Below are positions 3,431 to 38,874 of a DNA stretch of 40,424 nt, piece after piece (position 1 is the stretch's first letter; the number at the start of each line of letters is the position of its first letter). A model generated the notes under the pieces. That model saw only the letters and a program-made list of their open reading frames with translations, was not told the origin of the DNA and searched no databases. Origin of the DNA: a virus; the IMG/VR virus record IMGVR_UViG_3300048018_000041, positions 1 through 40,424 of that record. One strand, given 5' to 3'. A program made the position numbers and the translations under genes.

Positions 3431-4846
3431 ATGGCAATAGCAAGTTCAGGTGCCGCTCTAGCGCACCTTACTCCAAGACCCGTAAAAGATCTATTTGGAG
3501 ACAATTATTTAAGCATTACCGGGAATGACTTTAACTTTACAAAACAATTCTTACCAGAAGTATATGAAAAAGAAGTAGAAAGATACGGAAACCGTACTAT
3601 CTCTGGATTTTTGAAAATGGTAGGAGCTGAAATGCCTATGGCTTCTGACGAAGTTGTATGGTCTGAACAAGGTAGAATTCACGTAGCATACGACGATGTT
3701 GTTGGTACTGATGTTTCTGCTAACTTACTAACTTTTAGTGCTGCTCACTTAATTAACATCGGTGATACTATCATCGTTAGTAAAGGTGGTGTAACATTAA
3801 AATGTTATGTATCTGCTGTTCCTTCTTCAACTACAATTACTGCACAACCTTACACAGCTGCTGATATTTCAGGTATTGGTGCTGACGCTGTTTCAGGTGT
3901 AAAAGTATTTGTATATGGTTCTGAATACAAAAAAGGATCTTCTGGAGCTGGTAACACTAAAGATGCTAACTTCACATCTTTTAGCAATAAGCCAATTATT
4001 CTAAGAGACAAGTACAGTGTAAATGGTTCTGATACTGCTCAAATTGGGTGGGTTGAAGTAACTACTGAATCTGGAACTGGAGGTTACCTTTGGTATTTAA
4101 AATCAGAGCACGAAGCAAGATTAAGATTTGAAGATCAATTAGAAATGTCTATGATTGAAGCAGAGAAAAAAGCAGGATCATCTGCTATTTCAGCTTCAGG
4201 AATTTCTGGATCTGAAGGTTTATTTGCTGCAATTAACTCTAGAGGTTTAGTATTTAACAATGCTGACTTTGGAGGTTCTGAAGCTACAGACGGTCTAGCT
4301 GACTTTGATTTAATTCTACAAGAATTAGACAAGCAAGGATCAATTGAGGAAAACATGTTATTTTTAGATAGAGGAACTTCTCTAGCTATCGACAATATGT
4401 TAGCTGCTCAAAACTCTTACGGTTCAGGTGGTACATCTTACGGTGTTTTTAGTAACAGCGAAGATATGGCATTAAATTTAGGATTTTCTGGTTTCAGAAG
4501 AGGTTCTTATGACTTCTACAAAACTGACTGGAAATACTTAAATGACTCAACTACAAGAGGACTAGTTGGTGATATTGAAGGTGTATTTGTTCCTGCTGGA
4601 ACTTCTACAGTTTACGATCAGCAATTAGGTAAAAATATCTCAAGACCATTCTTACACGTTAGATACAGAGCTTCTGAAGCTGACGATAGAAGAATGAAAT
4701 CTTGGATTACTGGTTCTGTTGGTGGAAACTATACAAGCGACGAGGATGCAATGAACGTACATTTCTTATCTGAGAGATGTTTATGTGTTCAAGCTGCAAA
4801 CAACTTCGTATTGTTGAAATCTTCTGATGGAGTTATCGGTGACTAA
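3431..4846 (+). CDS. Major capsid protein (HK97-fold expected)
   Basis: A 471-residue protein directly after the scaffold-like gene and followed by a strong terminator. The N-terminal part (LPEVYEKEVERYGNRTISGFLKM), the central RLRFEDQLEMSMIEAEKKA segment and the C-terminal part ending FVLLKSSDGVIGD resemble capsid proteins of podoviruses of marine Bacteroidota, by recall. Residues about 95-145 form a Val/Thr-rich beta segment that may be an inserted domain. Codon choice differs from the neighbours: AAC outnumbers AAT for Asn, and TTC and TAC are frequent, as expected of the most highly expressed virion gene. The ATG at 3431 follows an A-rich leader with no Shine-Dalgarno. Cryo-EM or mass spectrometry of virions would settle it. 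Confidence 0.85.
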   Translation: MAIASSGAALAHLTPRPVKDLFGDNYLSITGNDFNFTKQFLPEVYEKEVERYGNRTISGFLKMVGAEMPMASDEVVWSEQGRIHVAYDDVVGTDVSANLLTFSAAHLINIGDTIIVSKGGVTLKCYVSAVPSSTTITAQPYTAADISGIGADAVSGVKVFVYGSEYKKGSSGAGNTKDANFTSFSNKPIILRDKYSVNGSDTAQIGWVEVTTESGTGGYLWYLKSEHEARLRFEDQLEMSMIEAEKKAGSSAISASGISGSEGLFAAINSRGLVFNNADFGGSEATDGLADFDLILQELDKQGSIEENMLFLDRGTSLAIDNMLAAQNSYGSGGTSYGVFSNSEDMALNLGFSGFRRGSYDFYKTDWKYLNDSTTRGLVGDIEGVFVPAGTSTVYDQQLGKNISRPFLHVRYRASEADDRRMKSWITGSVGGNYTSDEDAMNVHFLSERCLCVQAANNFVLLKSSDGVIGD

Positions 4847-4865
4847 TTATTACCAATAGTAAACT

Positions 4866-4906
4866 TTACCCTCGTTGTTTTGACGGGGGTAACTTTTACT
4901 TTTATT
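4866..4906 (+). terminator. Factor-independent terminator after the capsid gene
   Basis: The stem TTACCCTCG (4866-4874) pairs with CGGGGGTAA (4884-4892) over nine pairs including one G-T, around a nine-base loop. A T-rich tail follows at once (TTTTACTTTTATT). It lies 20 bases after the capsid stop and should limit read-through, so that capsid mRNA exceeds downstream messages. Confidence 0.85.
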
Positions 4907-4910
4907 AACA

Positions 4911-4928
4911 TTTATATTATATTATATC
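4911..4928 (+). promoter_or_regulatory. AT-only leader TTTATATTATATTATATC, candidate promoter
   Basis: It sits between the capsid terminator and the ATG at 4929, in the longest non-coding gap of the + block (82 bases). A gene placed right after a terminator needs its own promoter or depends on read-through, so this string is a candidate -10 region or leader. The resemblance to 2213-2226 supports a shared element, but the role is inferred. Confidence 0.35.
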
Positions 4929-5681
4929 ATGAAAAAAGAGAAATCAGCAAAAAGCTGGGAAATAAAAGATAGACTTTATATATTAAAGTCAGGAGTTCAA
5001 CCATTAGTTTTTACACTACCATCTAAACACACGAGAAGAAAGTCGTTACTATGGTTTGATGAAAACAGTGGCGTTCAACAAGAGATTAGATACGCAACAA
5101 ACCAATCATCACCTCTAGTTGGAGAACAAAAAGGATCGGTTACTTTAGGTCACATCATATTTAGAGATGGAACTTTAAACGTGCCAAAACAAAAACAAAA
5201 TTTACAAAAATTGCTTTCTTTATATCACCCTGCAAAGGATGTTATTTATAAAGAGCATGATGAAGTAGAAGATGCAAAAGACGATCTTGAATATATGAAT
5301 TTAGAGATCGACGCATTAGTTGCTGCAAAAAATGTTGAAATTGATTTAGCTGAAGCTATATTAAGAGTAGAGATTGGTTCTAGGGTTAATAATATGACTT
5401 CTAAGGAAGTTAAAAGAGATTTATTAGTATTTGCTAAAAGAAATCCTGCTTTATTCTTAGATCTACTACAGGACGATAGCGTAGAACTTAGAAACTTTGG
5501 TATAAAAGCTGTAGAAGCTGGAATACTAAAACTATCACCAGACCAAAGAAATTTTACTTGGGCTAGTAACGGTAGAAAAGTTTTAACAGTTCCATTTGAT
5601 GAGCATCCATATTCTGCGTTAGCTTCATTCTTTAAAACTGACGAAGGTATAGAAATATACAAAAACATCGAAAAGCGATAA
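4929..5681 (+). CDS. Conserved phage head-region protein of unknown role
   Basis: The product has 250 residues. The N-terminal ~90 residues look like a small beta domain (RLYILKSGVQPLVFTLPSKH, then a GEQKGSVTLGHIIFRDG stretch). The middle, about residues 105-165, is helical and acidic, and the rest is mixed. No catalytic motif or membrane segment is apparent. It is bracketed by terminators at 4866-4906 and 5696-5720, so it forms a one-gene unit between capsid and adaptor genes. I recall similar proteins next to capsid genes in marine Bacteroidota phages, but no function. A head-decoration or head-completion role is the likeliest inference from position. Mass spectrometry of particles would test it. 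Confidence 0.6.
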   Translation: MKKEKSAKSWEIKDRLYILKSGVQPLVFTLPSKHTRRKSLLWFDENSGVQQEIRYATNQSSPLVGEQKGSVTLGHIIFRDGTLNVPKQKQNLQKLLSLYHPAKDVIYKEHDEVEDAKDDLEYMNLEIDALVAAKNVEIDLAEAILRVEIGSRVNNMTSKEVKRDLLVFAKRNPALFLDLLQDDSVELRNFGIKAVEAGILKLSPDQRNFTWASNGRKVLTVPFDEHPYSALASFFKTDEGIEIYKNIEKR

Positions 5682-6443: not shown

Positions 6444-7322
6444 ATGGGATTATTTCAAGGAACACAACAAAACTACTACACTACTGCTTCTAGTTTCGGA
6501 AATTATCAAACTATAAGCCTTAAGGATATAATTAACAACTTTGAAATAGCTTATGTTGGTGAAGGTAAAATTATACCTAAACAAAAAAGAAGTAATATAG
6601 TATTTTTTGCAAAAAGAGCTTTACAAGAGTTAAGCTACGATACTTTGAGGTCAGAAAAGTCTCAAGAAATTGAAATAAGCCCTAACTTAATTATGGCTTT
6701 ACCTCATGACTATGTTAATTATGTTAAAATTACTTGGAAAGATACTTCTGGTGTTGAAAGAATCATATATCAAGCTGATAAAACTAGTAATCCACTTTCT
6801 ATACTACAAGATGGTTCTTATAACTACTTATTTGATAGTAGCAATAACTTATCAACGTCAACTGATTCAGACACTTGGTCAGACTTTAAAGCGTCATCTA
6901 ACGCAACAAGCGATACTAGTGTCGATGATAGTGGTTTTGATACATCTACATCTAACGGTGGTAGATTTGGTTTAGAACCTTCAAAAGCACAGTCAAATGG
7001 AGTTTTTTATATAGACCCTTTAAAAAGTAGAATACATTTTAGCGCTGACATAAATGGTAAAACAGTAACTTTAAAATACATATCTGATAGTTTAGCTACA
7101 GACGATGAAATGAAAGTACACAAGTTTGTTGAAGAAGCTATATATAAATTTATAGCCCACTCAATACTAGCTTCATCTTCAGGTGTTCAAGAATATATAG
7201 TAGCTAGATTTAAAAAAGAAAAGTTCGCCGCTGTAAGAAATGCAAAATTAAGATTATCAAATTTAAAAATTGAAGATTTAACTCAAGTTATGAGAGGTAA
7301 ATCTAAACAAATAAAACACTAG
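6444..7322 (+). CDS. Probable second neck/ring structural protein
   Basis: The product has 292 residues. A recognisable helical part (SLKDIINNFEIAYVGEGKII, then ARRALQEL-like FAKRALQELSYDTLR) is followed by a beta region with a Ser/Thr/Asp-rich loop (about residues 130-170), and the C-terminus is Lys-rich. This helical-beta pattern is typical of proteins between adaptor and nozzle genes in crAss-like and related short-tailed phages. It lies three bases after the previous stop and four before the next start, so the three are co-translated and probably assemble together. No enzyme motif is seen. It could be the tail-hub ring rather than a neck ring. Confidence 0.55.
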   Translation: MGLFQGTQQNYYTTASSFGNYQTISLKDIINNFEIAYVGEGKIIPKQKRSNIVFFAKRALQELSYDTLRSEKSQEIEISPNLIMALPHDYVNYVKITWKDTSGVERIIYQADKTSNPLSILQDGSYNYLFDSSNNLSTSTDSDTWSDFKASSNATSDTSVDDSGFDTSTSNGGRFGLEPSKAQSNGVFYIDPLKSRIHFSADINGKTVTLKYISDSLATDDEMKVHKFVEEAIYKFIAHSILASSSGVQEYIVARFKKEKFAAVRNAKLRLSNLKIEDLTQVMRGKSKQIKH

Positions 7323-7325
7323 CAC

Positions 7326-10300
7326 ATGCCAGAATTAAAGCACCATTTTCGTCTAGGTAAAATGAATAAAGACCTTGACGAAAGATTAGTTAACAATGGC
7401 GAATACAGAGATGCATTAAATATAGAAATATCCAGCTCTGAAGGTTCAGATGTAGGTTCAGTACAAAATATATTAGGTAATACAATTGAAAAAGTAAATA
7501 CTTATAATTCTGATACTAAAGCTTCCACGTACTGGGGCAGTTCATTTGGTTTGTCTAACGCTACTTGTATTGGCGTTGTTAGAGACACTGAAAATGAAAA
7601 AATATATTGGTTTGTAACATCTGATACAGTAGACTGTATTATAGAGTTTAACCAAACAACTAAAGAAATCTCACCTATACTTGTAGACACTCAAGATATA
7701 TTAAACTTTTCTAGCGATAATCTTATAACGGGTATAAACATATTAGAAGGTTTATTGTTTTGGACTGACAACGTTCATGAACCTAAAAAAATAAACATAT
7801 CTAAGTTTAAAACAGCTACAAATAATACTTTCACACATACGCAAATAAATGGTTCTAATTTTATAGAAGATCATATTACATTGATAAAAAAATCTCCTAT
7901 AGAAGCACCAACTTTAAATATGTCATTGTCTAAAAGAAGTGGCATAATAGAATCATCTACTAGTTATAACTTTACTAGAAATCAAGAGCCAATGTTAACT
8001 ACAGAACCGGCTTTTAATTTAACTTTTAACCCAGCGCCTAACTTTTTAGTTGGAGATACTATTATACTTAGTTCTAGCGAAGACGATGCTAATTTTAAAG
8101 ATGAAATAGAAGTTAGAATAAAAATAGCCTCTATAGTTTCTAACACTGTTTTCTCAGTAACGTTACAATCTGTCTCTGATTTAGTTCCAACTAGTGTAAT
8201 AGTGTATAAGGCTAATTTAGAACAAGAAGAACCTTTGTTTGAATTTAAATTCCCTAGGTTTGCTTATAGGTATAAATATGAAGACGGCGAATACTCTTGT
8301 TATTCACCTTTTTCTGAAATAGCATTTTTACCAGATGAGTTTGATTATAATCCTAAAAAAGGTTATAATTTAGGAATGACTAACAACATAAGAAGCTTAA
8401 CTATATTAGGTTTTAAACCTTCTAACATGCCTTATGGCGTTAAAGAAATAGATCTTTTATATAAAGAATCAAACTCTAATAACATATATACTGTAAAAAC
8501 TTTTAATGAAAATGATTCTGAGTGGGATAACAATAGTTTTAACATAGAGTCAGAAATAATATATGCTACATTACCAGGTAATCAAATACTTAGACCTTGG
8601 GACAATATACCTATAAAGGCTAAAGCTCAAGAAATGATAGGGAATAGGCTTATTTTTGGTAATTATACACAAAACTACGACTTAATAGATTACAATAATA
8701 AAATTGTAAAACCTAAGTTTGATGTTACTATTGAGCAACCAACGAATAAAACCGTAGTTGTTAAATCTCCGTCTAAATCTATAAAGTCATTAAGAACATA
8801 CCAGCTAGGTATTATTTATAAAGATAAATATGGTAGAGAAACACCTGTATTAACTGATGACTCTGGGTCTAAGAAAATTGGTAAAAAATCTGCTGACAAT
8901 TACAATAATATAAAAGTAAAGTTAACAAACCCTACGTATCCTTCTTGGGCCACTCATTTTAAATACTTTATAAAAGAACCTTCTAATGAGTATTATAATT
9001 TAGCAATGGATAGATGGTATAATGCAGAAGATGATAATGTTTGGTTGAGTTTTCCATCAAGTGAAAGAAACAAGATACAAGAGGATAGGTTTATTATACT
9101 AAAAAAGAAACATGATTCCGATGTGTTTGTTCAAGATGAAGCTAAATACAAAGTTATAGCTATATCCAATGAAGCTCCTGAGTTTTTAAAGGAAACTAAA
9201 AAAAGTAAAGGTATAATGGAAACCAACTTTTTAACGTCAGGTTTTCCACAAAAAGAAGGTACTTTTGTTGATATTGGCGCTACTGAGTTTGAAGAAGAAA
9301 CTTTTGGTGTAGGAGAAGGTAATAATCCAGAAATAATATCAATTTCAGATCTTTATATAAAATTTAAAGCCGGTAACAATACTTCTAAATACTACGAAGT
9401 TGTAAGCTTTTCAAAAATATCTAATCCAGATAGATACAGAATAACTATAGATAAAACTTTTAAAGAAGATGTTAGTTTTGCTGGTAGTTTTTCTTCACCT
9501 GTATCTGGTTTAAGTATAGAAATTGCACAACAAGTTATAGAAAACAAACCAGAGTTTACAGGAAGATTTTTTGTTAAAGTCTATAAAGATCAAGTTTTAC
9601 AAGATAATATATTAAGCAAAACTGATCAACAAACTAGTTATGGTATAGTTTCTAAAGAAAAAATATTTTTAATAAAGAATAAAGGTGCTAGTAAAAGCTT
9701 TTGGAGAGACAAAAGTAAAACTGGATCATACAGTATTAGCCTTAGTAGAATTCAAAAACACGTAAAGGCTGGTTGGTTTATTGACAGTAACAACAACTAT
9801 TATAATAGTGGTCATGGTGGTGGAAGTTTAGACCCTGCAAAGAGAAGAGACGGTAAATTGTTAGGCGCTACAAACTCTGGATATGGCATAAAAGCTGGTA
9901 AAAAAACAATATCAATTTCATATCATTGGTTTGGTGGTAAAGATAGAAACGCTTGGCCTAGTGTATGGCAAAACTTCCCTAGTGATGAAGAAGATCAACA
10001 GTTTATTGATTTTGTAAAATCATTAGAAAATGATGGCATGAAGTTTAGGCTAACAGATGATCCAACAAGCACTGTTTATGAGGTCAAAAAACATTTAAGA
10101 ACACATATATTTGCGTATGACCAAGCTAGGGTTAAAAGAGGTAAGTTTGCTAGCATGAGAGTTATAAGATGGACTTTAGCTATAGATAAGCCTATAAAGT
10201 GGTCACCAGAAACAAATGTAAATGATATAGAAAATAAAGATAATGGTACTGGTTTCGAGTTTTTAACACCTTATAATGATGATGCAGAATTTACAACTGA

Positions 10301-26144: not shown

Positions 26145-27869
26145 TTATCCGTCACAACTAAGACAGCTCTCATCCATTGCTTGTTCAGCAATATCTCCAC
26201 GTAACACTGACTCAGTCCGAGTATAGTATAAGGTTTTAATACCTTTTTTCCAAGCTTCAAAATGTACTTTATTAATCCACTTAGGTGTGGCAACACTAGG
26301 AAAAGCTAAATTTAAACTTACGCTTTGATCTATATACTGTTGTCTTATACCCGCTTGATTAATTAGTTCTAACTGATTAACTTCTTTAAATGTTTTAAAC
26401 ACATCTTTAGCTGGTATATCATTATAAGGACCAACCATAACTTTATTAAGTTCTTTTAATCCTTGTACTGATCCTCCGTCTTTTAAGATTTTAGACCAAA
26501 CAGTTTCATTATTGATTTTAAGCTTGCGAAGGAGCTTAACCAGTGTGGGATTTTTACGAATGAAAGTACCTTTAGCACTTTGCTCAGTAAATACATTAGC
26601 AGCCCAAGGCTCAATGCCAGGAGATACATTACCACTAAGCTTACTGTTACTAACGGTAGGAGCAATAGCCCTAAGATGAGTATTCCGCATGCCAGTACCG
26701 ACACACCACAGAGGTTCCCCAAACTCTTCAGCAAGGGCCATAGAGGCTCGTTCAGATTCAATTTTAATTTGTGAAAATATTTTTCTAGTTTCATATTGTG
26801 CTAATAGTCCTTCAAATGGTAGGCCCTTTTCTTGTAAGTACGTGTGCCAACCTAAAACGCCTAATCCTAAAGCTCTACCTTTTTCAGCAGATCTTACAGA
26901 ATTATGAAATCCAACTTTACCTTTGGATCTTTGTATAAACTCTTCTAATACACCATCTAAAAACCATATAGAGTCATGTATTAAATTAGTTCCTTTCCAT
27001 TCATCATATCTAGCTAAGTTTAAACTAGATAGACAACAAACAAAGCTATGTGATTCATCTGTATGTAATGTAATTTCACTACATATGTTAGTCATATGAA
27101 CTTTTAAACCATGCTTTTTGTAAGCTGTTGGGTTATTTTTGTTTGTATTTCCCTTAAATAATATATAAGGTTCTCCAGTTGCTTTACGCTTTTGTAATAG
27201 CTTTCCCCACTTTTTTCTAGCATCAACATCTCCTGCTTCAACTCTTCGCATGAACTTGTCGCCGACCACAGCGCACTGGTGGAGGTTGAGTGATTGACGA
27301 TTAACGTCTCCTTTAGGTTCTCTAATTTCAAGCCATTCCTCAAAGTCGGGATGCTCAATATTGAGGTTAACTGATGCAGCTCCTCTTCTGACAGACCCTT
27401 GATTAGTGGCCAATATTGTTGAATCGTATACCTTACAAAAAGGCACAACTCCGTCACTTGTTCCATTTCCTTTAATTTTTGCACTAGCGGGTCTGATTTG
27501 ATTTATTCCAATACCTACTCCACCGCCGTGCTTTGCGAGTAGCATCATCTCTAGGTTTTTACTACCTATATCGTATATACTGTCAGCAACATCTATACCA
27601 AAACAACTGATCGGTAAACCTCTGTCTGTACCCGTGTTAGATAACACAGGGGATGCAAGACACAGCCAACCTGACCAAATGTATTCAAAAAATTTATCTG
27701 CCATTTCAGGACGTTCTAAACGTCTTGCAACTGTTTTACAAACCCTGTTGTAAGCATCTCTAGGTGTTTCTCCTTTTAATAAGTATCCACCACCAATAGT
27801 TTTTTTATAAACATCAGTTTCACCCCAAGCAGGGTAATCTTTTCCTTTTATCCAATCATTATTCCACAT
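26145..27869 (-). CDS. nrdA: Ribonucleotide reductase, class I large (alpha) subunit
   Basis: A 574-residue NrdA, short against the roughly 760 residues of E. coli, because the N-terminal ATP-cone is absent. Catalytic features are readable: Cys89 in LPISCFG, the radical-site segment NICSEI (Asn261, Cys263, Glu265), Cys278/279 in VCCLSSLN, the radical-relay Tyr548-Tyr549 in LYYTRT and C-terminal Cys569/Cys572 in CLSCDG for reduction. It reduces NDPs to dNDPs with the beta subunit encoded upstream. Without the cone, overall ATP/dATP activity control is probably lost, common in phage RNRs. It overlaps the preceding small gene by 11 bases and ends at the bidirectional terminator. The assignment is secure. 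Confidence 0.97.
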   Translation of the reverse strand: MWNNDWIKGKDYPAWGETDVYKKTIGGGYLLKGETPRDAYNRVCKTVARRLERPEMADKFFEYIWSGWLCLASPVLSNTGTDRGLPISCFGIDVADSIYDIGSKNLEMMLLAKHGGGVGIGINQIRPASAKIKGNGTSDGVVPFCKVYDSTILATNQGSVRRGAASVNLNIEHPDFEEWLEIREPKGDVNRQSLNLHQCAVVGDKFMRRVEAGDVDARKKWGKLLQKRKATGEPYILFKGNTNKNNPTAYKKHGLKVHMTNICSEITLHTDESHSFVCCLSSLNLARYDEWKGTNLIHDSIWFLDGVLEEFIQRSKGKVGFHNSVRSAEKGRALGLGVLGWHTYLQEKGLPFEGLLAQYETRKIFSQIKIESERASMALAEEFGEPLWCVGTGMRNTHLRAIAPTVSNSKLSGNVSPGIEPWAANVFTEQSAKGTFIRKNPTLVKLLRKLKINNETVWSKILKDGGSVQGLKELNKVMVGPYNDIPAKDVFKTFKEVNQLELINQAGIRQQYIDQSVSLNLAFPSVATPKWINKVHFEAWKKGIKTLYYTRTESVLRGDIAEQAMDESCLSCDG

Positions 27870-28078: not shown

Positions 28079-28330
28079 TTATGTTATTAAATGTTTAACC
28101 CAAGCTATAAGCCCGTTTATATTTAAAGCAACTAAGTTCCATTGCTTACGATATGCTGTTTGTACACAGACACAAATAAAACCAGCTATATATAAAGCCG
28201 GTTCTATTGTCCATTGTGCTGCTACTAGAAAACCAGCTCCCATATATCCAATACGGGTAGCCATTCTTTCACTAGGTTTTAGTTTTCTTTTTCTTTCTAT
28301 TAAAAACCTTAGCAGTTTGTATTTTACCAT
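28079..28330 (-). CDS. Small membrane protein in the RNR operon
   Basis: This 83-residue protein has a basic N-terminus (FLIERKRKLKPSER) followed by hydrophobic stretches (about residues 28-60, GYMGAGFLVAAQWTIEPAL and YIAGFICVCVQTA) that could span the membrane twice. It overlaps nrdB by seven bases. It may be an inner-membrane protein unrelated to RNR. Function is unknown. Confidence 0.5.
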   Translation of the reverse strand: MVKYKLLRFLIERKRKLKPSERMATRIGYMGAGFLVAAQWTIEPALYIAGFICVCVQTAYRKQWNLVALNINGLIAWVKHLIT

Positions 28331-29301
28331 ACGTCTTCAAAATCTTCGCCTTCATTTGCTTTACTATAGTCAGTCGGCCTAATAGCAAAGAAATCAGTGT
28401 GAGTGTGACCCCCGGTAAGATGATCAAACCAAGCCATTTTGTCAATTGACTTTTGGTCATATTCAAATTTAAATTTTCCTTCTGCTTTGTAACCCAATTC
28501 TTTAATTTTATCACCTGTTCGTTTTTTAATAAAATGTTGAAGGTCATATTTTGTTATACCTTCAATATCACCCATTTCAAATAACTTAGATATATAAGTC
28601 ATTTCAGCATTATGCATTGTTAAAGCTGCATTGTATACATGCTCTTTACATTCTTCTTTTAGTCCTGGTATTTGAGAACACATGTGTCTAAATAATTGAC
28701 AGCCCATTTTAGAATGTAATGATTCATCTCTTACAGACCATTTCATTTGCTGACCAATACCTTTTAGTAAGTTACGCATTTGAAAGCTGTATAGCACAGC
28801 GAAAGCTGAGTAAAGACTAACACCCTCTGCAAACGCAGAAAATGTAGCTAATGATTTGCCTATTCCTACAGGATCATTACCTTCATAAGCTACAAGATTA
28901 TCAAATCTAGCAGCCGTAGCAGGTTCATGTAAAAAAGCTTCATAATCTTCAAGACCTAAAGTCTCATTTAAATAGCTATATGCTACAGCATGTATAGTTT
29001 CTTGTGAACCGAACATCATTGCCATTTGTTGTATTTCATGTTTAGGAAACCAACCAACAACTTTTTGTGTCCAGTAATCTGACACAGCACATTCAGTTTG
29101 TGCAAAACCTAGTAAGATATTACCTACTAAGTTTTTCTCTTTATCGTTTAACTTCTCATTCCAGTCTTTTAAATCACCTGACATAGGTATTTCAGTATGT
29201 AACCAAAATGCTTGTGCTTGTTTTAACCAACCTTCTGTGTAATATTCTGGGTATTCAAAAGGCTTATAAGGTATTCTTTCTGTAAATAGTGGTACGTTCA
29301 T
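28324..29301 (-). CDS. nrdB: Ribonucleotide reductase, class I small (beta) subunit, with Glu at the first metal position
   Basis: A 325-residue NrdB that makes the radical for NrdA. Metal ligands are readable with canonical spacing: Glu70 (in FAQTECA), Glu101 and His104 (ETIH), Glu159 (FAEGV), Glu193 and His196 (RDESLH). Intervals 70-101 and 159-193 equal those of E. coli 84-115 and 204-238. Tyr108 occupies the radical position (His104 plus four). In E. coli and mouse the first ligand is Asp; Glu here resembles class Ic-type enzymes, yet the radical Tyr is kept. It starts one base after the 51-residue gene. The enzyme call is secure; the metal type is open. Confidence 0.97.
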   Translation of the reverse strand: MNVPLFTERIPYKPFEYPEYYTEGWLKQAQAFWLHTEIPMSGDLKDWNEKLNDKEKNLVGNILLGFAQTECAVSDYWTQKVVGWFPKHEIQQMAMMFGSQETIHAVAYSYLNETLGLEDYEAFLHEPATAARFDNLVAYEGNDPVGIGKSLATFSAFAEGVSLYSAFAVLYSFQMRNLLKGIGQQMKWSVRDESLHSKMGCQLFRHMCSQIPGLKEECKEHVYNAALTMHNAEMTYISKLFEMGDIEGITKYDLQHFIKKRTGDKIKELGYKAEGKFKFEYDQKSIDKMAWFDHLTGGHTHTDFFAIRPTDYSKANEGEDFEDVW

Positions 29302-30034: not shown

Positions 30035-30347
30035 TGTGTACTTCTATGTCGCCAAGAGGATCATAATCATAATGCTCTCCTGTATTACCATTTTGAGCTA
30101 TTATGTTTATTCTTTTAAGCATAGATTCTTCTATCTCATCTTGCAAACATCTTTTTGCAGCTTCGATATACAGTAATGCATCCATTAATTCTTCTTGAAC
30201 ATCAATTAAAAATCTATTAAGATCTTTTTCTTGACCTTCAATTTCTTGCATCATTGTAGCTCCATACTTTTTTTGGCCTATTAAACTTCGTTGGTCCATT
30301 TTAGCTAATACAGCTTGGACTATTTTATCTTTAGTTTTAATTTTCAT
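30018..30347 (-). CDS. MazG-like / all-alpha NTP pyrophosphatase-family protein
   Basis: A 109-residue helical protein with a core RSLIGQKKYG, then DLNRFLIDVQEELMDALLYI. The EELMDA acidic helix and the preceding KYG recall phage proteins annotated as MazG-like or dATP/dGTP-diphosphohydrolase N-terminal type. Such enzymes remove (d)NTPs. It overlaps the GIY-YIG/MazG fusion upstream by 11 bases and the endonuclease downstream by 17. Substrate cannot be read from sequence. Confidence 0.55.
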   Translation of the reverse strand: MKIKTKDKIVQAVLAKMDQRSLIGQKKYGATMMQEIEGQEKDLNRFLIDVQEELMDALLYIEAAKRCLQDEIEESMLKRINIIAQNGNTGEHYDYDPLGDIEVHNEKTL

Positions 30348-31107
30348 CTTTTACAAATGTTCCGTTAATCATTTTACCTGTTCTTTTGTTTATAACATCA
30401 TAAGCCGTTTGTATACACGACTCTATATAAACACCTCGTTGATGCGCTAAATTTGTTAACACGACAACCATATCACCAATAGCATCTATAACCTCTGGTT
30501 GATCGTCTTTAAGTAGAGCTTTAGCTAATTCACCAGCCTCTTCTTGTAACTTTACATATTGAACCATAGGATTACCTTTTTCATATAAACCTCTATCATA
30601 AGCCCATGTTCTAATTTTATCAAACATTACTTGACTTTTATTATAGTCTGGTATTTCCATTATTGTGTCGGTTTTAAAATACTCTGCAAAAGCTTTATTA
30701 TATATATAAGATCTATTATCATTATACATAGAAACTTTAGCGTTATCCATTATCCATTGTATTGTTTGCATATCTATATAGAACTTCCCATGAGATGTTT
30801 CCCATTTTAGATTCATATTGTCCATAAGATGTCCTTTAAGTTTATTCAAAGGAACTGCAAATGTTGAAGTTTGTTCTGTTACGTTTATTTTCATTTTCTT
30901 AAAAAGGTTTTTATATTTTTTTCTATCTACCTTGTAGCCATAAGACTTTTGAAGTTCTATCTCTTTGTCCGATATATAATCTATATCGTCCGACTGATCA
31001 AGAACTTCATACTCGCTTGGTTTATAACCCTGAATTAACGTAACTCTTGTATTAAGATCACGTGTAACTCCGATTTTTTTACCTGGTATGTGGTATAAAT
31101 AATACAT
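30337..31107 (-). CDS. GIY-YIG-like domain fused to MazG-type pyrophosphohydrolase
   Basis: A 256-residue two-domain protein. Residues 1-70 look like a short GIY-YIG nuclease domain: YYLYHI in the GIY position, KKIGVTRDLNTRV in the YIG-x-Arg position, and an acidic helix (DKEIELQKSYGY) holding the likely catalytic Glu. A middle part (about 75-150, PLNKLKGHLMDN and SYIYNKAFAEYF) is unassigned. Residues about 165-230 are MazG-like: KLQEEAGELAKALL, then EVIDAIGDMVVVL, with the EExxE...ExxD metal pattern. It starts in a TAATG overlap with the TS-like gene and overlaps the second MazG-like gene. Nucleotide-pool cleansing linked to DNA cleavage is inferred. Confidence 0.72.
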   Translation of the reverse strand: MYYLYHIPGKKIGVTRDLNTRVTLIQGYKPSEYEVLDQSDDIDYISDKEIELQKSYGYKVDRKKYKNLFKKMKINVTEQTSTFAVPLNKLKGHLMDNMNLKWETSHGKFYIDMQTIQWIMDNAKVSMYNDNRSYIYNKAFAEYFKTDTIMEIPDYNKSQVMFDKIRTWAYDRGLYEKGNPMVQYVKLQEEAGELAKALLKDDQPEVIDAIGDMVVVLTNLAHQRGVYIESCIQTAYDVINKRTGKMINGTFVKDEN

Positions 31108-31745
31108 TATTTTGTTATTTTATCGTTATACAAATGTAAGTTATGTGCAAAATGGTAATAAGTACCTATTTCATATCCTGTCCTCTCTGAGACTAATTCC
31201 TGTAGCTTTGAAAAACAATACTGATCATTACAGAAACCATACCAGAGGTCATTAGAACGCATCACAACACACATATTAAGCTTATTATCAACAACTGTAA
31301 ACTGAACCGCATAAGTACATGGCGTATCTTTTCTATATGTTTCCCATTCTTTAGCGTCATAAATACTAATTGCTGCATGTCTTGTGTCAGGATTATCCTT
31401 TAGCTTTGCACAGACATAATCTAATTGGTTATTTCTTTGCCACTGCCAACCATAGTTGGATCTTACATTACCTTCAGTGTCCATCATTTTATACCAAATT
31501 GGCGCTTTCTTAGCAATATCTTCCGCGTTAGGATTTCCTGACAGGTACCAATTCCACTCTCTTTCAGCGTATGTAGGATTCCACGCACGATGCTCAGCGA
31601 GTATAGTATTCTCCATTGGGTTTTCGATATAGAACCCGACATTAAATAAAGCTCTAGTGTTATCAAATATAACACCGTCCCACATAATTTTAGGAAAGAA
31701 ATAATTAAAAGCATCGCTTGCTGTTTTAAACTTTGTTTTTATCAT
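31107..31745 (-). CDS. Thymidylate-synthase-family enzyme with dCMP-type specificity residue
   Basis: A 212-residue TS fold protein from the ATG at 31745; a longer frame to 31826 would overlap the upstream gene by about 100 bases. Catalytic Cys143 lies in DTPCTY, and Glu63 matches E. coli Glu58. From Cys143 the spacing to Arg163, His204 and Tyr206 equals E. coli Cys146, Arg166, His207, Tyr209, so position 177 is Asp174 (RSNDLWYGFCND). TS has Asn there; T4 dCMP hydroxymethylase has Asp, and Asn-to-Asp TS mutants act on dCMP. The protein stops six residues after the Tyr, so ~50 C-terminal residues of TS are missing. It may methylate or hydroxymethylate dCMP; ordinary TS is the alternative. Confidence 0.78.
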   Translation of the reverse strand: MIKTKFKTASDAFNYFFPKIMWDGVIFDNTRALFNVGFYIENPMENTILAEHRAWNPTYAEREWNWYLSGNPNAEDIAKKAPIWYKMMDTEGNVRSNYGWQWQRNNQLDYVCAKLKDNPDTRHAAISIYDAKEWETYRKDTPCTYAVQFTVVDNKLNMCVVMRSNDLWYGFCNDQYCFSKLQELVSERTGYEIGTYYHFAHNLHLYNDKITK

Positions 31746-31983
31746 AATAAAATCTATATAATTCAAATATTTTTTCGTTAATCTGTTTACCATTGTATTT
31801 AAATGGTGATCGCTTTTTAGCTCCATTAACCTCTACATCAATCCACCAATAGTAATTATCTCTTTCACTACTATAAGCCCACGGGGTTATTTTAATCCCA
31901 TTGTTTATACACCATCTATATGCTTGTGTATTTTCATCGGTCCATTCAGGTCCTGGTATTGTTACTTTTTTATATCTAGCCAT
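31726..31983 (-). CDS. Small protein between primase-helicase and TS-like gene
   Basis: An 85-residue protein. I take the ATG at 31983, in a TAATG overlap with the helicase stop, rather than the TTG nine bases upstream. The sequence is rich in Tyr, Trp and Lys (TPWAYSSERDNYYWWIDVEV) and looks beta-alpha with no membrane segment. It overlaps the TS-like start by 20 bases. Function is unknown. Confidence 0.55.
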   Translation of the reverse strand: MARYKKVTIPGPEWTDENTQAYRWCINNGIKITPWAYSSERDNYYWWIDVEVNGAKKRSPFKYNGKQINEKIFELYRFYYDKNKV

Positions 31984-33701
31984 TAATCCCAAGGCATTTG
32001 TTCATCACTAGCCATAGTTGCTAACTCATGAGGTATAAAACAACCGGATCGTGGTTCCCATTTAAAATGAGCTTCAGCTCCGTTTTCACCTAAGTTTTGA
32101 AACTTTACTTTAAGTATTTTTGCTTTAACTGTTTTAGCCTCATAATCTCTGTGGACCAATATACCATGGTAACTTGCATCATACCATTCACCACCGCCTT
32201 TAATGTTGTACATTGTTGGCTCTTCAATCTTGCCGTTACTGTCTTTATACATTTTAGTTGGATGCGCTACAATAAATACTAAAACATCATATTTTTTTGC
32301 AAACATTTCAATCTTAGTTAGATATTCCATCGTGTAACGGTTTACATCTTCAGTCTTACAATCAACGTCTCTGATCTTATTAAAAGGATCTATAACAAGA
32401 CATTTAATACCCTTACGTTTAACCAGCTCAGCACCTTTACGTAATACAGACTCTAACGTATATCTTTCCATGTCAATATGAAAAAAGTTATCATTACAAT
32501 GATCTGCAATCTGATTCCATTTGTCTGTATGTATATCCTCTCGTTTAGGCATATCCTGCCATATCTTACGCATAAGCTTATGAGCATGTAAATATGTAGG
32601 AGCATTTTCAGGACTAGCAAAAGCTGTTTTCCATTGATATTTGTTGTTGTAGCCTACAACCATCTGATCAACGAAGTCAGACTTTCCGCTAGATGGTATG
32701 CCAGTAACAGTGATAAACTGCCCAGTATAAGTACTAAAAATATCATCAAAATTAGGTAAACCAATTTGATACCCACGTTTGAAGCCATTTTTAACAAAGT
32801 CTGTAATTTCATCTTCTATATCTTTAAAAGTTTTAACGTTTTCTAATGGCACAGGTCTTGCACCTTCAATACGTTTTAATAACTTTTCTTTACCATATTT
32901 AATTAGATACTCATTAGCATCTTTACAGTCTTCAAATGTAGTTAAAAAACAAACTTCAGCACCAAGACGTCTAATAAGCTCTTGTTGTAAAGCTTGACCT
33001 GGTTCATCATTATCTACTGCTAGTATTACTTTTTCTTTATCTTCAAAATAATCTATACAGTTATCTAAATAGTCTAAGTTATTAGAATTTAGAGTTGCAC
33101 CATTAGGAACTGATATTGCATTTTTAATTCCGGCTTCATGCAATGCTAATACATCCATTTCACCTTCAGTTATTATACATGTATCATAACCTACAATGCT
33201 ATTTATATTGTAAAATACTTTTTCAGCTCCTTTGTATAATTTAAAGTTTTTACGGCCATCTCTGTATTTAACATTGATTAGCTGATCACCCATTATATAG
33301 TTAAACTGAATAGTATTCTCGGACTTGCCGGTCTGCGGCATATATTCAGAACCCTCACTGACTTTTAAATCAGCAAGAGTTTCCTGAGATATACCTCTTG
33401 TTTTAAACCATTCCTCTACTTTAGTACCTGGCGCGTGTATAGCAACAGCGGTTGGCCTAACATAGACCTTCTCACTAGCTCCTTTACGCTGATAAGTGTG
33501 TAATTGAAATGATGAATCACAATGATGACAAGTACCCAGACCACGCTCCCAATCATAACTAGCACATTTAAGCTTTTGATTTTTCGGTTGCCTATCAGAC
33601 GAACAAAGGGGACAAGTCCCCTGAGTTTTACCCACATCTAAATTATGTTGGTTGAACTGGTCGATTAAAAATCCATTAATCTCCGTACTGTTTACTTGCA
33701 T
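31983..33701 (-). CDS. Fused primase-helicase (T7 gp4-like)
   Basis: A 572-residue protein with the T7 gp4 layout. An N-terminal zinc finger (Cys30, Cys33, Cys58, Cys61; CPLC ... CHHC) reads primer sites. A TOPRIM primase domain has Glu179 in ITEGEMD and Asp230/Asp232 in AVDNDEPG. A RecA-type helicase domain has Walker A GIPSSGKS (334-341) and Walker B CLVIDPFN (near residue 420). It unwinds the fork and makes RNA primers for the phage polymerase, which is not in the window. The gene follows the 28-residue zinc protein by 17 bases and ends in a TAATG overlap with the next gene. Confidence is high. Confidence 0.95.
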   Translation of the reverse strand: MQVNSTEINGFLIDQFNQHNLDVGKTQGTCPLCSSDRQPKNQKLKCASYDWERGLGTCHHCDSSFQLHTYQRKGASEKVYVRPTAVAIHAPGTKVEEWFKTRGISQETLADLKVSEGSEYMPQTGKSENTIQFNYIMGDQLINVKYRDGRKNFKLYKGAEKVFYNINSIVGYDTCIITEGEMDVLALHEAGIKNAISVPNGATLNSNNLDYLDNCIDYFEDKEKVILAVDNDEPGQALQQELIRRLGAEVCFLTTFEDCKDANEYLIKYGKEKLLKRIEGARPVPLENVKTFKDIEDEITDFVKNGFKRGYQIGLPNFDDIFSTYTGQFITVTGIPSSGKSDFVDQMVVGYNNKYQWKTAFASPENAPTYLHAHKLMRKIWQDMPKREDIHTDKWNQIADHCNDNFFHIDMERYTLESVLRKGAELVKRKGIKCLVIDPFNKIRDVDCKTEDVNRYTMEYLTKIEMFAKKYDVLVFIVAHPTKMYKDSNGKIEEPTMYNIKGGGEWYDASYHGILVHRDYEAKTVKAKILKVKFQNLGENGAEAHFKWEPRSGCFIPHELATMASDEQMPWD

Positions 33702-37144: not shown

Positions 37145-37478
37145 ATAATTCTATTTTTACATTATTCCATTTGCCTCCCTTCATTGTCGTGTCGACCAGG
37201 AAATCTATTCTATTAGTCCATCTTTTATTCATTCTATCCCTAATAACCCAAAGGCCATTCATATCACCAGCATTACTTACTAAAATGGTAGAGTTCATGA
37301 CGAAACCTTTAGATTCTAGATCTCTAGATACGGCTACAATTCTGTGTATAGCAGGATTTGCCATATTAATTTTAAAATTTGTAGCTGTCCTATCAGGTGT
37401 GCTGTCTGTTTGTGACGGTGTTGCATGATATATCGTAGCGGTCACAGTCAAAAGGGTACTCAGTATAAGGTTTTTCAT
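37131..37478 (-). CDS. Secreted protein, candidate 3D/RlpA-like double-psi barrel
   Basis: A 115-residue protein with a signal peptide-like N-terminus (MKNLILSTLLTVTATIYHATP). The mature part ends with a segment (VIRDRMNKRWTNRIDFLVD, then GGKWNNVKIEL) that fits the 3D/RlpA/MltA-type fold, where Asp in R-I-D-F is catalytic. Such domains act on peptidoglycan. The first 86 bases overlap the 178-residue gene out of frame; Met39 (37364) is an alternative start without overlap or signal. Function is an inference from pattern. Confidence 0.5.
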   Translation of the reverse strand: MKNLILSTLLTVTATIYHATPSQTDSTPDRTATNFKINMANPAIHRIVAVSRDLESKGFVMNSTILVSNAGDMNGLWVIRDRMNKRWTNRIDFLVDTTMKGGKWNNVKIELYESN

Positions 37479-37929
37479 TTTTGTTAATTATAGTTTTTTT
37501 ATCATTAATATAATAATTCCAATAAGCTTTAACGGAATTACCTTCAACTTTATATTCATCAGGCATACACTGTGGCGGTTGTGTAAAACCGGTATGTAAT
37601 ATACCACCTGGATATTTAGCTAAAGGTTTTTTACACTTAGTAATAGTTAAATGTGTTTTATTATAACGCTTAGTATACTCATCGCCAAGTGCGACCATGT
37701 AATGGTATAGCCAATAATAATTTTGACCAGACTGTCTAGCCCATATGGTAGACGGATGATTTACATGTGCTTTTTTATAAGGTATATCCTCGCATTCATC
37801 TTCAAGGTTATACATGCGATGAGCAGTACACAGCATTTGAGCTGCTTCGAGTATCATCTTAACTTTATGTTTGTCATAATGATAAGCGGCAGCTTTATAA
37901 GGATCAGGGTGTAAGTAAAATATATTCAT
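37393..37929 (-). CDS. Conserved phage protein of unknown function
   Basis: A 178-residue protein opening MNIFYLHPDPYKAAAYHYDK, then HKVKMILEAAQMLCTAH. I recall this opening and the following HPSTIWARQSGQNYYWLYHY pattern as a family in many marine phages of various types, without an agreed function. It has conserved His/Asp/Lys (YDKHKVKM) and HP-x-x-x-WAR that could be catalytic. It starts in an ATGA overlap with the 33-residue gene, and its C-terminal 28 codons overlap the secreted-protein gene. Confidence 0.65.
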   Translation of the reverse strand: MNIFYLHPDPYKAAAYHYDKHKVKMILEAAQMLCTAHRMYNLEDECEDIPYKKAHVNHPSTIWARQSGQNYYWLYHYMVALGDEYTKRYNKTHLTITKCKKPLAKYPGGILHTGFTQPPQCMPDEYKVEGNSVKAYWNYYINDKKTIINKNEKPYTEYPFDCDRYDISCNTVTNRQHT

Positions 37930-38027
37930 AGTTTATTTACTCTGTTATAATGTTGATCAAGTAGCATATTGGCAACTTCTATGCTGATCATGTTATCGTT
38001 GTACAATTGCCATACTAGCTTACTCAT
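37926..38027 (-). CDS. 33-residue protein between ligase and the next gene
   Basis: A small ORF (MSKLVWQLYNDNMISIEVAN...) overlaps the ligase stop by eight bases and the next start by ATGA. It fills the space exactly. The product is helical. Function is unknown; conservation in relatives would decide. Confidence 0.4.
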   Translation of the reverse strand: MSKLVWQLYNDNMISIEVANMLLDQHYNRVNKL

Positions 38028-38874
38028 AGTTACGAATAGTTTTAAACAATGGGTGTCTGTAACTACCGTACTGAGTACGTTCGAAATAAGTAAACGTAGC
38101 TCGTTTGCCTATGTAGTCATGAATATTGTTAAGTATATTGGCTAGATCTTTGTAGTTGTAGCCTTTACCTGGAGGACAACCAAACTCTATACCATCATCA
38201 TCTTGCATTAAGAACTTGCCAAGAGTACCTTCACGTTTGCCTTTGCCAGTTTCATAACCTACAATTGTAGCCTCGGTGTCGTTAAAGTCTTTAAACTTTT
38301 GTAAGTTGTAAGATCGTTTTTGCTGATAAGGTTTATCTAGACGTAGTATAGAGCCTTCATAACCGTTATTTAGATTATACTGATGTCTTAATTGTGCAGA
38401 GTCTTTAGAATTAACTAGAGTAGTTTCTACATATTTAATACAGTAGTTGTACATATCAGAACAAGCTAGCTGATCAGACCTGTAACTGTAAGGCTTATCC
38501 ATGACTGTTTCTATATAGTCATAGCAGTGAAACTGTATCAGTCTTTCAGCTTCAGCTTTATCAGCATCAGTTGGTTTTTGTTTTCTAACCAATGATATAA
38601 TCTTTTCGAAGTCATCTTTAAGATCATGGTTGTATAATTCACCGTCGAGCACAACATCTACATTAGCATAGTCAAAGAAAAATTTGTTTAACGATAGTTT
38701 AATGTGTTCAAGATTGTGAAATTCTTTACCTGTACGTGAAAAACATCTAATGTTTTCTTTGTCGTCGACATATATAACACACCTTACGCCATCAAGCTTA
38801 GGTTGAATGTATACTTTCTCGGACCAGTTAACAGGTTTTTTGTCTACTTTGTATGCGAGCATTGGTTTAATCAT
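38020..38874 (-). CDS. ATP-dependent DNA ligase
   Basis: A 284-residue ligase. Motif I is PKLDGVR with the adenylated Lys26. Motif III-like LDGELYN and motif IV-like YEGSILRL follow, then motif V LQKFK, and an OB-like C-terminal domain (GYETGKGKREGTLGKFLM). Size and order match small T7-type ligases. It seals nicks in lagging strands and recombination products. It starts in an ATGA overlap with the 89-residue gene. Confidence 0.93.
   Translation of the reverse strand: MIKPMLAYKVDKKPVNWSEKVYIQPKLDGVRCVIYVDDKENIRCFSRTGKEFHNLEHIKLSLNKFFFDYANVDVVLDGELYNHDLKDDFEKIISLVRKQKPTDADKAEAERLIQFHCYDYIETVMDKPYSYRSDQLACSDMYNYCIKYVETTLVNSKDSAQLRHQYNLNNGYEGSILRLDKPYQQKRSYNLQKFKDFNDTEATIVGYETGKGKREGTLGKFLMQDDDGIEFGCPPGKGYNYKDLANILNNIHDYIGKRATFTYFERTQYGSYRHPLFKTIRNYE

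Follow-up and report, generated by a model that had tools for sequence, protein, structure and literature searches.

A short thymidylate synthase-family protein of an uncultured virus with the signatures of a dCMP 5-hydroxymethylase and a MazG-type partner

The window analyzed here, the whole 40,424-nucleotide stretch of IMG/VR virus record IMGVR_UViG_3300048018_000041 (positions 1 to 40,424), carries a thymidylate synthase (TS)-family gene that, judging from its residues and predicted fold, very probably encodes a folate-dependent dCMP 5-hydroxymethylase acting like T4 gp42. Given these hydroxymethylase signatures and an adjoining NTP-pyrophosphatase-like gene, the virion DNA probably contains 5-hydroxymethylcytosine (5hmC). 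The T4-style disguise of cytosine would in this way be extended to a large and widespread group of viruses, most of them uncultured, whose hosts are probably Bacteroidota.

Diagnostic residues and the short C terminus

The open reading frame is complete and runs from ATG to TAA over 212 codons plus the stop; its product is a PF00303 member by profile match. The gene and its key codons are as follows.

31107..31745, minus strand: dCMP 5-hydroxymethylase-like gene, TS family, 212 aa (P0001); PF00303 2e-25, T4 gp42 best PDB match 3e-20, AlphaFold model
31326..31328, minus strand: Asp140 codon, three before Cys, at the water-activating position of hydroxymethylases (T4 Asp145); 71/71 in the family, role from PMC6400193
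31317..31319, minus strand: Cys143 codon, catalytic nucleophile; 71/71 in the family
31224..31226, minus strand: Asp174 codon, cytosine selector (E. coli TS Asn177, T4 gp42 Asp179); alignments, 71/71 in the family (a count somewhat enriched for Asp, see below)

Among solved structures, T4 dCMP hydroxymethylase was the best sequence match (37% identity over 171 aa), followed by MilA (1e-18) and then by lower-scoring thymidylate synthases. The AlphaFold model (pLDDT 92.6, pTM 0.90) was closest in fold to MilA (TM 0.91), with TM values of 0.84 to 0.88 for 9iqc/9iqu and 0.78 for T4 gp42. The original prediction had assigned Cys143, Arg163, Asp166, His204, and Tyr206 the spacing of E. coli TS residues 146, 166, 169, 207, and 209, without gaps; the constant offset of three was found, and MAFFT alignments with E. 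coli ThyA were ungapped from Cys143 to Tyr206. Asp174, not an Asn, occupied the column of E. coli Asn177, again as proposed. The same column holds Asp179 in T4 gp42, which bears out the claim made for that enzyme, and Asn in SPO1 gp29. The suggestion that dCMP is the substrate is strongly supported by Asp174 together with the match to the T4 structure.

Only 6 residues follow Tyr206, compared with 55 after the matching Tyr of E. coli TS and 28 in T4 gp42, so the protein does stop about 50 residues early (49 fewer than E. coli TS). The tail is absent as described. Its absence is a hallmark and no oddity, for T4 gp42 has lost the TS tail too.

The product had been left open as 5-methyl- or 5-hydroxymethyl-dCMP. 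The evidence favors the hydroxymethyl form and disfavors 5-methyl, since the published determinants of hydroxymethylation are all present. These are Asp179, which serves cytosine selection; Asp145, the acidic residue at −3 of Cys that marks hydroxymethylases; Ser94 and Tyr96 in a Ser/Thr-x-Tyr motif; Glu60, which activates folate; and the lack of both Trp83 and the tail (Park et al. 2019; PMC6400193). The window protein has Ser96-x-Tyr98 (both residues invariant in the family), Asp140, and the folate residue Glu63 (each of the latter two in 71/71 sequences), and Met87 lies at the position of the closing Trp83 of TS. Trp84, Arg122, and Ser164 also match published determinants, Arg122 and Ser164 being invariant in 71 family sequences. 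Two points count against the assignment. The second phosphate Arg is His, Lys, or Gln across the family (His123 in the window protein). In addition, the T4 enzyme grips the folate glutamate with Arg177 instead of the TS tail, but the window protein has Cys172 at that position and has lost the short C-terminal segment of the T4 enzyme as well; folate binding must therefore differ in detail.

Family-wide conservation and rival activities

At least 515 contigs encoding relatives of the enzyme were identified in an IMG/VR scan, and at least 557 in a further listing. Cys143, Arg163, Asp166, Asp174, His204, and Tyr206 were kept in 71/71 nonredundant sequences (relatives of ≥61% identity), although the invariance of Asp174 may be slightly inflated because the conserved-peptide patterns of the locus finder contain the Asp174 motif. 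Asp was also present in aligned relatives from a pattern-free tblastn search (Bacteroides, Enterococcus, and Agathobaculum phages). In nearly all family sequences the stop lies 4 to 9 residues after Tyr206, the following gene usually begins at the stop codon or a few bases from it, and pairwise dN/dS between close relatives was ∼0.05 to 0.19. The short C terminus is a family trait under purifying selection; being common to the family, the early stop is not a sequencing error, and a frameshift or truncated contig as its origin was excluded by the family-wide stop and the usually abutting next gene. Long branches met in a deep tree built with TS-family references, which gave no exact place relative to T4 gp42.

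The virus probably infects Bacteroidota hosts. Its capsid protein is closest to those of phages of Flavobacteriia (Cellulophaga, Flavobacterium, and Maribacter), and relatives of the enzyme occur in metagenome-assembled genomes of Flavobacteriaceae, Sphingobacteriaceae, and Saprospiraceae; others are in genomes labeled Aliivibrio, Halieaceae, and Verrucomicrobiales, which may be misbinned. Four cultured or named relatives by capsid (Cellulophaga phi38:1, Flavobacterium elemoE, Maribacter Panino, and ctfjg026) carried no PF00303 gene, and a literature search on 5hmC in Flavobacterium phages returned nothing relevant.

Other activities of the TS fold were weighed against the same residues. A dCMP 5-methylase, which the enzyme of phage XP-12 is, would reduce the methylene with hydride from tetrahydrofolate to yield 5-methyl-dCMP, as N229D/N177D TS mutants do. 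A lone Asn-to-Asp change turns TS into a dCMP methylase (cited in PMC8670742), but the closing tail and Trp83, which go with hydride transfer in TS, are both absent, and the acidic residue that precedes Cys by three positions is a mark of hydroxymethylases (PMC6400193), leaving methylation a slim chance. Slimmer again is a dCMP 5-hydroxylase (5-hydroxy-dCMP synthase) resembling RB69ORF048c/AfhB, a flavin enzyme with the TS fold that feeds arabinosylation. The TS-fold dCMP hydroxylase of RB69 and phage HY126 (9iqc/9iqu) represents a recent class, and activity of the Mosigvirus enzyme has been reported (PMC13390438). Such enzymes are likewise dCMP specific through Asp, end early, carry an acidic residue at −3, and resemble the model in fold; however, identity is only 27% over 158 aa, and in RB69/AfhB Trp84 is replaced by Val and Ser96 by Thr. 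Glu63 and Tyr206 are both Phe there, and Asp166 is Asn, but the window family retains every folate-type residue, which disfavors an FAD-type hydroxylase.

Membership in PF00303 and the annotation of many relatives as "thymidylate synthase" would suit an enzyme acting on dUMP, either an ordinary TS or a dUMP hydroxymethylase of the SPO1 type. This is highly improbable, as ThyA would be expected to show Asn177, Trp83, and a C-terminal tail, in place of which Asp174, Met87, and no tail were found; the SPO1-type enzyme would likewise carry Asn at the selector, as gp29 does, where all 71 family sequences, sampled with the slight bias toward Asp noted above, have Asp. It is scarcely credible that the substrate is the ribonucleotide CMP, even though the CMP hydroxymethylase MilA is the closest fold match. 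The CMP preference of MilA stems from Ala176 and Lys133 (Zhao et al. 2016; PMC5175136), and the corresponding residues here are the invariant Ser164 and Arg122, so that dCMP is predicted; the gene also lies among phage replication genes, together with ribonucleotide reductase. Diagnostic residues were the ground for rejecting TS, flavin dCMP hydroxylase, and the hydroxymethylases that act on dUMP or CMP.

The MazG-type neighbor and the proposed pathway

The neighboring genes and domains are as follows.

31983..33701, minus strand: Toprim primase-DnaB-like helicase, first large upstream gene; profile matches, gene order
31726..31983, minus strand: small upstream ORF, 85 aa; order conserved in five relatives
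30337..31107, minus strand: fusion of GIY-YIG-like domain and MazG-type NTP pyrophosphatase, 256 aa; PF01503 2.8e-6, PF03819 1.3e-4
30934..31107, minus strand: N-terminal GIY-YIG-like domain (aa 1 to 58) with invariant Tyr5, Lys11, Gly13, Arg21, and Glu49; weak Pfam matches, conservation
30379..30609, minus strand: MazG/PRA-PH domain (aa 167 to 243) with invariant Glu189, Glu190, Glu193, Asp208, and Asp212; profile matches, conservation, fold
28324..29301, minus strand: ribonucleotide reductase small subunit, same block, dNTP supply
26145..27869, minus strand: ribonucleotide reductase large subunit, same block, dNTP supply

The early block runs in the order primase-helicase, small ORF, hydroxymethylase, GIY-YIG-MazG fusion, small ORF, DUF1064 resolvase, and ribonucleotide reductase, and five relatives share the succession of primase-helicase, hydroxymethylase, MazG, and resolvase. 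The start codon of the fusion gene overlaps the hydroxymethylase stop (TAATG). A MazG gene was found downstream of the hydroxymethylase in 79 of 80 loci, the single miss being cut off by a contig end; it mostly lies within ∼10 bases of the stop or overlaps it slightly, with distances of 0.1 to 1.3 kb in some loci. Usually it is fused to the GIY-YIG-like domain, but in six loci it stands alone, the N-terminal domain being absent, which identifies MazG as the constant partner. Elsewhere in the window, a pyrimidine dimer glycosylase-like gene (PF03013/phrog_624; 37393-37929, minus strand) lies near an ATP-dependent DNA ligase gene (38020-38874).

In a PDB fold search, the MazG part resembled MazG, DCTPP1, and the MazG-like enzyme of phage S-2L, with whole-model E values of 0.01 or weaker. 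The same PDB search did not identify the GIY-YIG part, whose assignment draws on its invariant residues and on weak Pfam matches of the GIY-YIG clan (T5orf172 and MUG113 in 14 and 13 of 57 relatives, respectively; best, 4e-4; window copy, E = 0.11). In the window and the 57 relatives, Lys occupies the position of the second Tyr, and Arg and Glu are invariant; T4 endonuclease II and Hpy188I also have Lys in place of the second GIY-YIG Tyr. The domain is possibly a nuclease against plain-cytosine DNA. By analogy, the MazG-type protein likely acts as a dCTPase, and a dCTPase paired with a dCMP hydroxymethylase would mirror T4 gp56/gp42.

In the proposed mechanism of 5-hydroxymethylation, Cys143 would attack dCMP at C6, with Asp174 holding the cytosine and protonating N3. 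Methylene-tetrahydrofolate, activated via Glu63, would donate the carbon to C5, and water activated by Asp140 would add to the methylene in the open, tail-less active site, yielding 5-hydroxymethyl-dCMP. The MazG-type protein encoded downstream would probably hydrolyze dCTP to dCMP, both feeding the enzyme and clearing plain dCTP. The 5hm-dCMP could be phosphorylated by a host kinase or another kinase, and it would probably be the host polymerase that incorporates the 5hm nucleotide into the phage DNA.

Across 24 family records (23 of 61 to 96 kb plus the 40-kb window), no recognizable DNA polymerase A, B, or III and no carbamoyltransferase were identified, and a second PF00303 gene was found in only one. 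The T4-type dNMP kinase (PF21448) was absent from these 24 records, which represents a gap in the pathway, and the same search recovered those of T4 and RB69. ThyX was absent from 25 records, and no glycosyltransferase was found among the scanned proteins of relatives, in which many ORFs are unannotated. Host enzymes or unrecognized genes would therefore complete the pathway. Records without a recognizable polymerase (e.g., L089 to L092, 68.6 kb) do carry primase-helicase and ribonucleotide reductase genes, and L090 has a GroEL-like chaperonin gene (3811-5361), as in related Flavobacteriia phages. We tentatively suggest, as a possibility open to considerable doubt, a compact two-gene cytosine-replacement module, made up of the hydroxymethylase and the GIY-YIG-MazG fusion, in which MazG destroys dCTP, the GIY-YIG domain cuts unmodified-cytosine DNA, and the host replicase, there being no phage polymerase, copies the genome with 5hm-dCTP.

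Since MazG is a constant companion and no phage polymerase is recognizable, few genes would be needed to test the pathway. The predicted base in the DNA of these viruses would have consequences for restriction, for CRISPR, and for sequencing. Such very short TS-fold hydroxymethylases are also suited to studying folate binding in a tail-less enzyme.

Comparison with known systems

With T4 gp42 (1b49 and 6a9a), the window protein shares the Cys, Asp179, Asp145, Ser94-x-Tyr96, Glu60, and Ile81/Trp82 positions, the lack of a tail, and a phage replication setting. It differs in its 37% core identity, a C terminus 22 residues shorter, and the replacement of Arg177 by Cys172 and of Val85 by Met87. 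Unlike in the T4 system, the partner in the window family is a MazG-type protein, and neither a T4-type dNMP kinase nor a polymerase was found. MilA (5jnh) has the TS fold, the Asp selector, and the hydroxymethyl chemistry predicted here, but differs in Ala176/Lys133, in an extra C-terminal helical domain, and in working in antibiotic biosynthesis. RB69ORF048c/AfhB (9iqc and 9iqu) shares the fold, the dCMP-selecting Asp, and the short C terminus, yet lacks the folate Glu, Asp, and Tyr and is flavin dependent according to its PDB title.

The nearest named cultured relative is the "deoxycytidylate 5-hydroxymethyltransferase" of Bacteroides phage BF486P2 (22603-23283), with 48% identity and the same diagnostic residues; its genome differs in also encoding a DNA polymerase A and a carbamoyltransferase and in having a second, divergent gene of the TS family. 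This second gene (7156-7914), annotated as a dCMP hydroxymethylase, has Leu for the folate Glu, adjoins carbamoyltransferase and AAA_28 kinase-like genes, and may do something else. In Agathobaculum phage AB434P2, a tail-less Asp-type enzyme (3838-4497) ends 5 residues past Tyr and is annotated as a deoxyuridylate hydroxymethyltransferase despite its Asp selector.

In the MetaGPA study of environmental phage DNA, TS proteins with Asp177 were shown by experiment to be enriched on modified-cytosine contigs and co-occurred with PF01503 (2021; PMC8670742). The window carries the same combination, PF01503 being a domain of the neighboring gene, and the likeness drawn here is one of residue and domain. 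Because Asp177 TS proteins and PF01503 had already been tied to modified cytosine in this way, the protein described here is not a new kind of enzyme but one of a known type, with a notably short C terminus and a distinctive partner.
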